In this document: piece after piece, positions 58,521 through 63,900 of the stretch | Position numbering within the stretch: position 1 is the stretch's first letter | Layout of the letters: every line of letters begins with the position of its first letter | Source: a candidate division WOR-3 bacterium | GTDB lineage: Bacteria; Hydrothermota; Tepidihabitantia; SM23-42; JAOAFX01 | Reading direction: 5' to 3' | Assembly: GCA_039802005.1 (NCBI GenBank) | Contig: JBDRVV010000001.1 | Location: 62,001-126,000, forward strand | DNA: 64,000 nt | Translations under genes and position numbers: made by a program | Notes under the pieces: model-generated | Database searches by the model: none | What the model was told of the DNA's origin: nothing | Seen by the model: only the letters and a program-made list of their open reading frames with translations

Positions 58521-60482
58521 ATGATATTTTTTTATATTGCCGCCCTTATCTATGCCATTATATCGGCGCGGGGAATTTTACAATATAATATTGATATCAG
58601 ATTTGGCTATGTATTACTGGGTGTAGTAATTGCATATTTTTTACTATACACGCTGAGAAAAAAAATTCAATTACATCACACGTTAATTGCGGGTATCATA
58701 CTGAATCTATTAATTCAGTTAACGGGTGGATTAAAATCGCCATTTTTTTTACTGTACTTTCCAGCCATACCAATTATTGGTTATAAAGAAACTCAAAAAC
58801 ATTACTGGATTTTTGCTGGTATATTGTGTTTGACGGAATTAAGTTCAAGTATCTTTAAAAAACAATTTAACCCCTTTTCTATTATATTTTTTGTAATTAC
58901 CATTATTGTGACAGCGGTAATAATTGATAAGATAACTAAACGTGAAGATAAACTAAAAAAATCTTTAGCACGATATGAAGCAAGGGATTATTTCTTTGGA
59001 CCCGCAAATTTTGAAGCAAAAAATCTTATCACATCAATAAAGGATATTGACCGTCATCCCGGGATTGAAAGGCCATTACTTTTTTATGTAAAATTTGTTC
59101 ATAGTATTTTTAAATCTCATACCACTGCAATTTTTTCTTATAATGAAGATAAACTCATTCTTGTGCAGGGTTTTTCTTGTTCAGAATTATTCCTCTCTGA
59201 CTCTGTAATAAATGTGGAGAGGGGACTATATCGCCAGATAATCTTAGAAAAGAAATCTGTGCTTATAAAAGAATTTGTTCAGAGCTCGGAAGAACTCGGT
59301 TATTATCGTGGTGATGTCAGAATTAATTCGGTAATGATTGCGCCAGTTTTAATACTCGATAGAGTGGAAGGTATTTTTGTTGTTGACCGCAGGGGAGATG
59401 GTTTCACCGATGAAGACAAGATTCTTTTTGATGAAGCAACGAAGGGAATAGGATTTTTGATTTCAATGCTGAGATTGTATGAAAAAGAACGATATGAATC
59501 TAAATATCTTTCTTCTATTGCAGAACTTGCGCGCAGATTGCAACGCGGATTGGAATTAAAGACCATTGTTAGCGATACAGTAAGATCGTTTAAAGCCGTC
59601 TTAAATTGTGATGAGTTATCCATTGCCTCAGTAGATGAATTGAATAATCAGGGAACGGTTCTTGAATCTACCTATCTCAAAGAAAATACAAAATTCGGGC
59701 TCGATGAAGGGCTTGTGGGATTGGTTGTTAGACATCGTAACTATATAATGAAAGAAGATTTGAGTGAAGGTAATCTGATTGTATTAAAGAAAGGTGAGAA
59801 GAAAAATCGCGGGTCATTTCTTGGTGTACCGGTCAAGGGAGATAATGAAGTCCTCGGGGTGATATGGCTTGAGGACCACAGACGAAAAAGATTTGGTGAG
59901 GAGGATGTTGAGGCATTACACATACTCGCCTCTCAGCTTACCCTTGCCTGGCAGAGGGCAATCCTTTATGAGAGGGTAAAAGAACTTTCAATAAGGGATG
60001 GCCTTACTGGTTTATATAACCACAGGCATTTTCAGGAATTGCTTGAACAGGAGATAAAAAAACAAAAAGAATTTGTCCTTATGTTATTTGACATAGATTA
60101 TTTTAAAAAGATAAATGATACATATGGACATCAGGCAGGTGACGAGGTTTTGAAATTCATCGGAAGATTGATTTCGCAAACTGGCATTGCCGGTCGATAT
60201 GGTGGAGAAGAATTTGCAATAATACTTCCTAATAGTAATTTGAAGAAAGGGGTTGAAATTGCGGTGAGGTTAAAGGACCATATCAATAAATCTGAGGTGC
60301 TATTTAATCAGGTGAAGATAAAATTTACAATAAGTGTTGGTATTGCTCACTATCCAAAAGATGCAAAGAATAGGGTTGATCTCATAGAGCAGGCTGACCG
60401 GGCCCTATATTCAGCAAAAGAAACAGGCAGGAATAAAATCGTTATTGCAAAATCATTGAATGAAAAAAAATCTAATAATTGA
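58521..60482 (+). CDS. GAF-domain diguanylate cyclase with membrane region
   Basis: A 653-residue signalling protein. Residues 1-135 hold about five membrane helices; two GAF-like domains follow (about 175-320 and 330-485), and a GGDEF domain (about 490-645) with active site RYGGEEFAIILP and metal-binding DIDYFKKINDTYGHQAGDEVL. The inhibitory RxxD site before GGEEF is not present (the position reads R-L-I-S), so product inhibition may be absent. It should make cyclic di-GMP in response to a ligand or membrane cue. Its stop overlaps the tRNA-Sec -35 box. Confidence 0.9.
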   Translation: MIFFYIAALIYAIISARGILQYNIDIRFGYVLLGVVIAYFLLYTLRKKIQLHHTLIAGIILNLLIQLTGGLKSPFFLLYFPAIPIIGYKETQKHYWIFAGILCLTELSSSIFKKQFNPFSIIFFVITIIVTAVIIDKITKREDKLKKSLARYEARDYFFGPANFEAKNLITSIKDIDRHPGIERPLLFYVKFVHSIFKSHTTAIFSYNEDKLILVQGFSCSELFLSDSVINVERGLYRQIILEKKSVLIKEFVQSSEELGYYRGDVRINSVMIAPVLILDRVEGIFVVDRRGDGFTDEDKILFDEATKGIGFLISMLRLYEKERYESKYLSSIAELARRLQRGLELKTIVSDTVRSFKAVLNCDELSIASVDELNNQGTVLESTYLKENTKFGLDEGLVGLVVRHRNYIMKEDLSEGNLIVLKKGEKKNRGSFLGVPVKGDNEVLGVIWLEDHRRKRFGEEDVEALHILASQLTLAWQRAILYERVKELSIRDGLTGLYNHRHFQELLEQEIKKQKEFVLMLFDIDYFKKINDTYGHQAGDEVLKFIGRLISQTGIAGRYGGEEFAIILPNSNLKKGVEIAVRLKDHINKSEVLFNQVKIKFTISVGIAHYPKDAKNRVDLIEQADRALYSAKETGRNKIVIAKSLNEKKSNN

Positions 60483-60506
60483 CAAAATTGTTTTGATAAA
60501 TATAAT
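60479..60506 (+). promoter_or_regulatory. tRNA-Sec promoter
   Basis: TTGACA (60479-60484), 16-bp spacer, TATAAT (60501-60506), 11 nt before the tRNA. The -35 box uses the stop codon of the GGDEF gene. Confidence 0.8.
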
Positions 60507-60517
60507 ACAATATGTTT

Positions 60518-60611
60518 GGAGGCGGATGGGTGCTGGTGTGCCTGACGGGCTTCAAACCCGGTTATCCCTCGAAAGGGGGATGGTAGGTTCGATTCCTACA
60601 CGCCTCCGCCA
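60518..60611 (+). tRNA. selC: tRNA-Sec (anticodon TCA)
   Basis: Acceptor GGAGGCG/CGCCTCC with a possible eighth G-A pair, anticodon loop CTTCAAA giving TCA, long variable arm (ATCCC.../GGGAT), T arm GTAGG-TTCGATT-CCTAC, discriminator G (60608) and encoded CCA (60609-60611). This is the UGA-decoding selenocysteine tRNA; selB and selA follow on the opposite strand. Its last 16 nt overlap the end of selB. Confidence 0.93.
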
Positions 60612-62518
60612 GTTCCTAACACTCTGATTTCTCCTCGTTTAATGGTGATGCCTTTTGAATCAAAATAAATCAAAAGTGGAAGTGCAAATTTTCTGCTGGC
60701 GTTTAATAAATCCCTGAATTCAGAAACCCTAATTTCTTTATGCTCCATCAGGAAATTGATTATCTTCTTTTTTGCTTCTTCAACCATTTCTTTGTGGAAT
60801 ACAACACCTTCCCCAACGTTGACAAGGGTCCCATTATCAAGGAGATAACGGTATGCCTTCTTTACGAGTTCAGGGGGTCCAATTCTTTGTTCTATTATTT
60901 TTTCTAACTCCGGGGGCTGAAACCTTGCATCAATATATATATTTTCCAGTTTTTTAACCATTCTGCCAAGTTCTTCATCAAGGGCAACTTGAAAATCATA
61001 AAGGCTTATTTTCCCATCGTTGGAAATCTTAATCTTAGATACCTCTTTTAAATGCTGTATGGTAAAATTAAATAAGGTATTATCCAATCCTTTGGGCAAT
61101 TTATTTAACAATTCAAGTCTTGGTATGCCAACAAGGGTTGGGTTATTCTGATGAAAGGTTTTAACAATTCCTACTATCATCTCTTCAAGTTTATCTAAAT
61201 TTTTACGGGAGTAATATAAGTTGCGTTTTTCATCTACCACAAGCAATGTTTTTTGATTCAATAAATCTTGAATTATATTTTTCACATTATCAACCGGAAG
61301 ATTTATATCATGCGCAATTTCTTCGGGTCTTAAGGGCAAGGTAAAACTTTGATTCAAATTTTCTTCTACGATTACCGCAGGCTCCTGGGTTTCAATTTTT
61401 TGCAAGTGTGATAAAATCTCTTCATCGAATTCTTTTATTTTATCCGCTTTTGGAACCAATATAACACCACCACCGATTGTCACCGGTGGGGAATAGGTTC
61501 GGATTACAAATCTGTCTCCAATATCACAAACTGCAGGTGTTTCAAGCCGGAATTGTACCATTAACTTTTCGCCGGGTTCCATTGTTTTCTTTTCTAAAAT
61601 CACAACCCTTGCGAGAATTTCGCTCGTCCCGAGATGCAGTCTTATTCGCGAGAAGGTTTTTAATGGATGTGATGAATGCAAAAGGTACAGGGAGCCATTC
61701 ATAAATAGAGAAGGTTCAAAAAATCCCGGCTGGGCAATTACATTGCCTCTTTCAATTTCTTCTTTCTCAGCACCCGCAATATTAATTGCGGCACGAAATC
61801 CGGTACCAACTTCTTCAACTTTTTTGTTATGAACTTCTATGCCGCGTATTTTTAATTCCCTTTTTTGGGGAAGCAGTTCTACTGTGTCGCCGACTTTTAT
61901 CTTACCTGAAAGTACTGTTCCAGCAACAACTGTGCCAAAACCCTTCATTGTAAAACATCTATCAATCGGCATTCTAAAAATGCCTTTGTCCGTTTTTGGC
62001 TCGGTCTGTTCAATCATCTGTTGGAGAATCATTTTTAAAGTATCAATGCCATCTCCAGAAACATTTGATACAGGGATTATAGGTGCTTCTTGTAGAAATG
62101 AATCTTTAGTTAAATGTTTTATATCATCTACCACCAGGTCAAGTTGTTGGTTGTCTACCAGATCAATCTTGGTTATGACAATGACCCCCCTTTTTATCTG
62201 AAGTAATTTTAATATTTCAAAATGTTCAATTGTCTGGGGCATTACCCCGTCATCCGCAGCAACAACAAATAATACAAAATCTATTGTGCTGGCACCAGCA
62301 AGCATATGACGGACAAACTTTTCGTGTCCTGGAACATCAATTATTGTGACATCATCACCATAAAATGCAAAACCCAGATCCGTAGTCATTCCCCTTTCTT
62401 TTTCTTCCTTCAATCGGTCCGGGTCTGTCCCGGTCAAAGACTTTATCAATGCACTTTTGCCATGGTCTATGTGTCCTGCTGTTCCAATGACGATGTGCTT
62501 CTTAATTGACTCGATCAT
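60596..62518 (-). CDS. selB: Selenocysteine-specific elongation factor SelB
   Basis: A 640-residue GTPase that brings Sec-tRNA to UGA codons at SECIS hairpins. G domain: GTAGHIDHGKSALIKSLTG, switch segment TTDLGFAFYG, DVPGHEKFV and TKIDLVD, followed by EF-Tu-like domains 2-3 and four C-terminal winged-helix domains (about 400-640) that bind the SECIS. Its ATG overlaps the selA stop by 4 nt; its stop codon lies inside the 3' end of tRNA-Sec on the other strand. Full-length. Confidence 0.95.
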   Translation of the reverse strand: MIESIKKHIVIGTAGHIDHGKSALIKSLTGTDPDRLKEEKERGMTTDLGFAFYGDDVTIIDVPGHEKFVRHMLAGASTIDFVLFVVAADDGVMPQTIEHFEILKLLQIKRGVIVITKIDLVDNQQLDLVVDDIKHLTKDSFLQEAPIIPVSNVSGDGIDTLKMILQQMIEQTEPKTDKGIFRMPIDRCFTMKGFGTVVAGTVLSGKIKVGDTVELLPQKRELKIRGIEVHNKKVEEVGTGFRAAINIAGAEKEEIERGNVIAQPGFFEPSLFMNGSLYLLHSSHPLKTFSRIRLHLGTSEILARVVILEKKTMEPGEKLMVQFRLETPAVCDIGDRFVIRTYSPPVTIGGGVILVPKADKIKEFDEEILSHLQKIETQEPAVIVEENLNQSFTLPLRPEEIAHDINLPVDNVKNIIQDLLNQKTLLVVDEKRNLYYSRKNLDKLEEMIVGIVKTFHQNNPTLVGIPRLELLNKLPKGLDNTLFNFTIQHLKEVSKIKISNDGKISLYDFQVALDEELGRMVKKLENIYIDARFQPPELEKIIEQRIGPPELVKKAYRYLLDNGTLVNVGEGVVFHKEMVEEAKKKIINFLMEHKEIRVSEFRDLLNASRKFALPLLIYFDSKGITIKRGEIRVLGTGGGV

Positions 62519-63900
62519 TTATTACTCAAAATATTTAATATTTTATCAATGATAATTTTTTCCTCTCCCTTAAATATGGTTCGGAAATCAAGTAAATAAT
62601 GGCCATTTTCAATCCTGCCAAATATTGGTGGATTAGAAAGGCGCAATCTTTTTGCAAGATGCTCAACCGAAAAATTTTTGGGCTTGATTGCTAAAACATA
62701 TGTTGGCAATTGTTCAGTGCTCAATGAACCACCACCTATTTCAGATACCGACCATCTGACCTCCAATTTTAGATCAGGTAAATCCTGTAATTTTTTTGCA
62801 CACCACCGTGCCTGTTTTTTAATATCCTGAATTGGTTTTAAAAGTAATGACATAACGCCGTGATTTTCTAAGATTATTTCTTCCTTTCTTAAAAATAACT
62901 GGAGTGTTGCTTCAAGGACAGCACTCGTTAGTTTGTCACATCTCAATGCCCTTGTCAGCGGGTTCTTTTTTATTTTTTCAATATATTCTTTTTTGCCAAT
63001 GATTATTCCACACTGGGGACCACCAATCAACTTATCACCGCTGAAACAAATTATATCTGCACCGATCTTTACGCTTTCCTGAACCAGGGGTTCTTTAGGT
63101 AGATTATATTTTGAGAAATCAATCAAAGCGCCACTTCCTAAATCATCAATCACCGGTAAATTATATTTCTTTCCCAGCATGACGAGTTCTTCAAGTGGCA
63201 CCTGTTTAGTGAAACCCGATATCCGATAATTTGATTGATGAACCCTCAAAATTGCAGCAGTATTTTCGTTTATCGCTGACTCATAATCTTTCAAGTGGGT
63301 CCGATTTGTTGTTCCAACCTCACGCAATATCGCACCGCTCTGAGCCATTACATCAGGAATTCTAAACGAACCGCCGATTTCAATTAATTGCCCGCGGGAA
63401 ATAATAATTTCTTTGCCTTTACCAATGGTATTGAGTATCAATAATGTTGCTCCGGCATTGTTATTTACAAACATTCCAGCCTCTGCACCCGTTATGATCT
63501 GGAGTAATCTGCTTATTTTTTTATAGCGGTCAGCCCTTTTCCCTTCTTCATCTATCTGTAGTTTTGAATACCCGATACTAACAGAATACAATGATTGTAA
63601 TATACCTTCAATATATGGTGCCCTACCCAATCCAGTGTGAAGGATAACTCCCAATCCGTTTATTGCGTAGGTGTAATAAGGCTTTATTAAATCATTTAAT
63701 TCCTCAATAATTGAGTTTTTTAAATCATCAATACTTAAAGTTTCTTTATCAATTATCCTTTTTCTAAAATCTTCTGTTTTCTCACGAATAACTTTTATTA
63801 TATATGCATGCTCTAATTCGTCAGTAAAATCTTTTAATTCAGGAAAATTCAATATTTTATCAACAGAAGGAATTTCCCTTACATCTTTTATTTCATTCAT
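62515..63900 (-). CDS. selA: L-seryl-tRNA(Sec) selenium transferase
   Basis: A 461-residue PLP enzyme that turns Ser-tRNA(Sec) into Sec-tRNA(Sec) with selenophosphate. PLP lysine K290 lies in CFSGDKLIGGPQCG; HTGLGRAP, NNNAGATLLIL and IDDLGSGAL are conserved. Its ATG overlaps the stop of the preceding gene (ATGA), and its own end overlaps selB by 4 nt, so all three are coupled. Together with tRNA-Sec and selB this completes most of the pathway; selD is not here. Confidence 0.95.
   Translation of the reverse strand: MNEIKDVREIPSVDKILNFPELKDFTDELEHAYIIKVIREKTEDFRKRIIDKETLSIDDLKNSIIEELNDLIKPYYTYAINGLGVILHTGLGRAPYIEGILQSLYSVSIGYSKLQIDEEGKRADRYKKISRLLQIITGAEAGMFVNNNAGATLLILNTIGKGKEIIISRGQLIEIGGSFRIPDVMAQSGAILREVGTTNRTHLKDYESAINENTAAILRVHQSNYRISGFTKQVPLEELVMLGKKYNLPVIDDLGSGALIDFSKYNLPKEPLVQESVKIGADIICFSGDKLIGGPQCGIIIGKKEYIEKIKKNPLTRALRCDKLTSAVLEATLQLFLRKEEIILENHGVMSLLLKPIQDIKKQARWCAKKLQDLPDLKLEVRWSVSEIGGGSLSTEQLPTYVLAIKPKNFSVEHLAKRLRLSNPPIFGRIENGHYLLDFRTIFKGEEKIIIDKILNILSNK

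Follow-up and report, generated by a model that had tools for sequence, protein, structure and literature searches.

In the DNA treated here, a stretch of 64,000 nt from a candidate division WOR-3 bacterium that we refer to as the window, the genes selB and selC lie on opposite strands, tail to tail (convergent), and selB ends inside selC, the gene for tRNA-Sec. This is a real and long-lived gene overlap, of a kind that has been described previously. It probably arose (we put the probability at about 0.8) when, after loss of a spacer, selB captured its stop codon from the invariant tRNA, in a way that was roughly neutral for SelB and has no regulatory role. Rather than being a switch, it is most likely a side effect of the way the genes are packed.

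The selB-selC junction

The features at the junction are as follows.

60479..60506, + strand: predicted sigma70-type consensus promoter match (TTGACA-N16-TATAAT) before selC, ending 11 nt before the tRNA
60518..60611, + strand: selC, tRNA-Sec (anticodon TCA) with CCA encoded (ARAGORN; Rfam RF01852)
60596..60611, both strands: the 16-nt overlap of selB and tRNA-Sec (sequence, ARAGORN, ORF list)
60596..60598, - strand: selB stop codon TAG (60598-60596), the complement of CTA in the T-stem 3' strand of tRNA-Sec
60596..62518, - strand: selB, 640 aa (ORF list; TIGR00475)
62515..63900, - strand: selA, 461 aa (TIGR00474, 541.3 bits), upstream of selB with a 4-nt overlap

The preliminary description had placed the selB stop inside the 3' end of tRNA-Sec, at 60596-60611, and both coordinates and description are borne out by ARAGORN, Rfam, the ORF and TIGR00475. 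The RF01852 match covers 60518-60607 and scores 78.3 bits (gathering score 47), and selB scores 344.7 bits with TIGR00475, whose cut-off is 242.25. The overlap takes in 16 nt at the 3' end of the tRNA, namely 4 nt of the T-stem 3' strand, position 66, the acceptor 3' strand (7 nt), the discriminator G and CCA. On the minus strand this reads T GGC GGA GGC GTG TAG, that is the wobble (third) base of one codon followed by four SelB codons (Gly-Gly-Gly-Val) and the stop.

Gene callers usually avoid overlapping tRNA genes, and one could suppose that the selB frame has been miscalled and that SelB ends before the tRNA, or that there is an assembly error. We consider this extremely improbable. There is no in-frame stop before 60598, and the coding pattern, with synonymous changes dominating, is kept up to the last codon before the overlap. 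The identical overlap and identical stop are present in all three genomes of the genus that were compared (the others being L011/L050 and L012/L049), and as these are separate assemblies a sequencing error is very unlikely, and their agreement speaks likewise against an error of assembly. All three place the stop in the T-stem, and not upstream of the tRNA.

The cloverleaf is the minimum-energy fold of the tRNA-Sec (z -3.03). The 8/5 acceptor domain of bacterial tRNA-Sec would have eight pairs in the acceptor stem; here seven standard pairs are followed by G8 opposite A66 (window 60525 and 60600). Over 68 distinct tRNA-Sec sequences the 8/66 position is G-A in 48, G-C, T-A or C-G in 16 and another mismatch in 4, and A66 is not a consequence of selB, since relatives without the overlap also have it.

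It had also been claimed that tRNA structure dictates the C-terminal residues of SelB. Of the 55 tRNA-Sec loci of the phylum, 36 share one and the same 20-nt 3' end and 19 have another. Among the 36, five have the 16-nt antisense overlap by a supported gene (L001, L011, L012, L018 and L058) and 31 have no Pfam-supported antisense overlap. The presence of the same end in those 31 indicates that the SelB tail follows from the tRNA sequence, rather than the tRNA sequence from the tail, and it led us to reject a special tRNA sequence selected for SelB's sake. Among the three genus genomes whole selB has pS of 0.76-0.82, which is saturated, and pN of 0.10-0.14, and yet the last four codons have 0 changes at 4.0 synonymous and 8.0 non-synonymous sites. 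The overlap is thus old and held fixed by the tRNA and, as judged from these sequences, predates the divergence of the species of the genus.

The claim stands on both counts, the shared 20-nt end and the unchanged codons, but in a weaker form, as it concerns four residues only, which stand in place of a non-conserved tail of roughly equal length. The last winged-helix match, SelB-wing_3, covers residues 589-634 of the 640, and in an alignment of nine SelB proteins (three from the genus and six relatives) Gly 635 is the most C-terminal of the invariant positions. The tail that follows is TGGGV or LGGGV in the genus (RVLG-TGGGV in the window) and QKYR, QKYQ or QTGS in the six relatives, QTGS being that of G003. 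From this alignment and the winged-helix end at 634 we take the tRNA-encoded tail to have replaced a non-conserved one of similar length, and a C-terminal SelB extension with a new function is unnecessary as an explanation. More distant relatives have the tails LSKKFKD, SPKYQKP and SSKYKTNKA.

With regard to the rest of the selenocysteine system, a selD match above cut-off is present at G000:C22:17404-18315 (L187). It has one in-frame TGA, and SelD is therefore probably itself a selenoprotein. With selA, selB, selC and selD all found the system appears complete by gene content. The SelB of L106, also from candidate division WOR-3, has 62% identity to that of the window.

Genes ending in tRNA-Sec in the phylum and beyond

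The phylum set comprises 55 tRNA-Sec loci found at E values up to 1e-12 in 54 of 147 genomes. Weaker matches, for example a contig-end fragment in G014, are outside the 55, and a few loci are cut by contig ends. All were screened for ORFs of 80 aa or more touching the tRNA, with a Pfam match taken as family support.

The 16-nt antisense overlap of selB is present in three of the 55 loci, those of the three genus genomes. The comparison of junctions in related genomes that had been suggested at the outset was run, and gave, besides the overlap in 3/3 within the genus, eight relatives in which selB and selC are convergent with a spacer. The distance from the tRNA end to the leftmost base of the selB stop ranges from 25 to 1,872 nt (G008, 25 nt; G004, 107 nt; G050, 115 nt; G043, 155 nt; G049, 996 nt; G003, of the same family, 1562 nt; G009, 1671 nt; G010, 1872 nt). 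Because these eight have a convergent selB that does not touch selC, the convergent order looks older than the overlap.

The tRNA 3' ends, including that of selC, are known integration sites, and with the breakpoint on the 3' side of the tRNA one might think that a mobile element fused selB to the tRNA when it entered or left the 3' end of selC. This we regard as very unlikely, since the three long ORFs tested at the junction are selB, selA and a diguanylate cyclase gene, and the same convergent pair is kept in related genera.

There are five apparently separate cases in which a family-supported protein gene ends inside tRNA-Sec, in 8 of the 55 loci.

selB, antisense, 16 nt: L001, L011, L012
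selB, sense, 12 nt: L056, L057, L058 (G132, G133 and G134, all three with SelB support)
tsaB-like gene (named here from its Pfam TsaD match), antisense, 16 nt: L018 (G051)
lysR, antisense, 16 nt: L058, with a lysR fragment likewise in L056
holA-like gene (named here from its Pfam DNA_pol3_delta match), antisense, 43 nt: L059:836-1867

In the case of G132-G134 the sense selB ends GGA GGC (or GGT) GGA TAG inside the 5' end of the tRNA. As the TAG is tRNA nt 10-12, the selB mRNA would lose its stop when RNase P cuts at the 5' end of the tRNA. L058 has one tRNA-Sec overlapped at both ends, by selB in sense on the 5' side and by 16 nt of lysR at the other end.

The tsaB-like protein of G051 ends ...AELQREKR-TGGGV, with its stop inside selC, by way of the same 16 nt, and its counterpart in G048 ends ...AELQREKR, with the stop 39 nt beyond selC. 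This pair shows the likely route to such an overlap.

At least one ORF of 80 aa or more touches tRNA-Sec in 28 of the 55 loci. Three same-strand ORFs that start inside or just before the tRNA were not counted, those of L029 and L040 (Porin_O_P) and L065 (Se_S_carrier), as the Pfam stretches begin past the tRNA; these ORFs may have a later start codon. The one in L065 (L065:1785-2144, G070) encodes a putative Se/S carrier protein and is directly after tRNA-Sec on the same strand. The remaining touching ORFs have no Pfam match and are uncounted, among them a 234-aa ORF in L071 with the same end point as selB. Real genes without a Pfam match would be missed in our total.

As a baseline we used 37 distinct tRNA genes, of at least 45 in the window's own genome, that lie around the fetched loci. 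An ORF of 80 aa or more touches 14 of the 37, and three touching ORFs have Pfam support (selB, cNMP_binding and PvlArgDC), the others tested being without a match. The PvlArgDC overlap (L104) is probably not real, as the match begins at residue 28, where the ORF is already past the tRNA. That leaves two of the 37 into which the end of a Pfam-supported gene runs, tRNA-Sec (selB) and tRNA-Glu (cNMP_binding). The latter is at G000:C3:128946-129017 (L086), where the gene for the cyclic-nucleotide-binding protein, on the same strand, extends over the first 22 nt of tRNA-Glu.

A wider set of 81 loci was made up of one viral contig and, out of 583 SelB loci in named genomes, the 80 best. There is a tRNA-Sec in 26 of them; within the stretch fetched the other 55 have none, and in 3 of the 55 selB is cut off. 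Where tRNA-Sec is present, selC follows selB on the same strand in 17 loci, precedes it in 6 and is convergent in 3, and there is no selB-selC overlap in any of the 26, which indicates that the trait is rare. The SelB end in L170, of this wider set, reads oddly.

Known selB-selC overlaps

Mukai 2021 (PMC8124441) described selC nested in selB in Alphaproteobacteria, a partial sense overlap in Dyella, Luteibacter and a Nitrospirae lineage, and a reversed overlap in Shewanella and some Ferrimonas, for which mutual cis-antisense RNAs were proposed. In an open-access library we found no title on such an arrangement in the present lineage.

The window's overlap resembles the reversed type of Shewanella and Ferrimonas in that the genes are convergent and the last SelB residues are encoded by the strand opposite tRNA-Sec (PMC8124441). 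However in those genera selB crosses the whole tRNA, starting with a Trp from the CCA end and stopping around the selC promoter (PMC8124441), whereas here another frame is used, the stop comes after 16 nt in the T-stem, and the bacterial lineage is different. The whole-tRNA crossing with noticeable SelB extension is absent here, SelB being as long as in the aligned relatives. As selB stops after 16 nt we treat the overlap as a variant of the reversed type and not as the same form.

With the partial overlap of Dyella, Luteibacter and Nitrospirae it shares a selB stop inside tRNA-Sec, but there both genes are on the same strand, with the stop at tRNA residues 46-48 in Dyella and Luteibacter (PMC8124441), and the 12-nt sense overlap of G132-G134 is the closer parallel to that type. 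In the nested type of Alphaproteobacteria selB and selC also share sequence (PMC8124441), but on the sense strand and with the whole tRNA in the ORF, and this brings a conflict over processing from which the antisense arrangement is free.

Few selB-selC overlaps are known, and the present one is new among them in both lineage and geometry. The relatives show a possible origin, in which the stop of a protein gene is lost and another is taken over from a tRNA whose sequence is not free to vary. It also bears on annotation, as rules that forbid overlap of a CDS with a tRNA gene can misplace the ends of such genes.

Origin of the overlap and the case for regulation

The course of events that we favour is the following. 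In the ancestor of the genus, presumably within a WOR-3-like lineage, selB and selC would already have been convergent, separated by a spacer as they are in related genera. The spacer would then have been lost, most simply by a deletion that also removed the old selB stop and the last few codons, and this would have joined the selB frame to the back of selC. There the frame would have met TAG, presented on the other strand by the conserved T-stem CCTAC, and gained its new stop. A strong promoter match precedes selC itself. Lying past the last winged-helix domain, the new SelB tail should be harmless. Because tRNA-Sec is strongly constrained, the borrowed stop and the Gly-Gly-Gly-Val would be unable to drift, and the arrangement could persist unselected.

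The deletion, the neutrality and the lack of a regulatory role are all three things that we infer, and some points tell against this reading. Weak selection for the overlap would also account for its retention while synonymous sites became saturated, two of the five overlap cases of the phylum involve selB, and the spacer may have been lost stepwise rather than in a single deletion; no intermediate of spacer loss was seen among the relatives examined.

The promoter match before selC is at 12/12 in all three genus genomes, its end lying 8-12 nt from the tRNA. Scores were obtained for 51 of the other 52 loci, the best being 11 and none 12/12. In a scan for intrinsic-terminator-like sites none was found for selB or selC within about 500 nt of the junction. 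The first is at 60009-59989 in the selB direction (1 found against 0.9 expected) and at 61128-61141 in the selC direction (3 found against 1.4 expected), so the counts are near chance. Given the absence of such sites near the junction, read-through of selB and selC into each other is possible in principle.

The preliminary description had raised the idea that a selB transcript running past its stop would be antisense to the tRNA and could affect its processing. The idea is neither needed nor new. As a full alternative, the overlap would be a regulatory device in which the 3' ends of the convergent transcripts, and more of them where termination is not nearby, are cis-antisense to each other, and each reduces the other's maturation, stability or transcription, so that SelB and tRNA-Sec are kept in balance. 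The lack of early terminator-like sites in both directions is in its favour, as are the retention of the overlap in 3/3 genus genomes over saturated synonymous divergence and the fact that selB-selC overlaps arose elsewhere, in sense in G132-G134 and in nested, partial and reversed form in Proteobacteria and Nitrospirae (PMC8124441). We nevertheless think it unlikely. The overlap is a mere 16 nt, and a relative with a 25-nt gap is equally open to antisense read-through; tsaB-like, lysR and holA-like genes overlap tRNA-Sec as well; the 26 further tRNA-Sec loci near selB have no overlap; the fixed tRNA sequence accounts for persistence without selection; and Rho or processing may end both transcripts. 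If selB-selC overlaps do prove regulatory, they would offer a natural test of the balancing of SelB against tRNA-Sec.

We also considered, as a quite doubtful proposition, that tRNA-Sec is a repeated donor of stop codons, through the T-stem TAG on the other strand and, in some tRNA-Sec, the TAG at nt 10-12 on its own strand, and that the selB overlaps among these are kept by tying SelB output to tRNA-Sec output. The means would be antisense contact in this genus and RNase P cutting of the mRNA in the sense overlap of G132-G134.

One further observation concerns the other side of the tRNA gene. In eleven other loci (L015, L019, L021, L023-L027, L034, L038 and L042) an A+T-rich hairpin of about 42 nt abuts the 5' end of tRNA-Sec. 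There are changes on both sides in 11 of its 18 pairs, and 97.2% of cells are paired. A cmscan of five loci, of which four carry the hairpin, matched tRNA-Sec alone. A model of the hairpin finds none in the window's genome, and 8-22 copies per genome in six of nine chosen genomes. In six of seven further copies the preceding sequence ends GGGAC and appears to form a second, G+C-rich hairpin, and one copy adjoins the 3' end of a tmRNA gene. The hairpin looks like a dispersed repeat.
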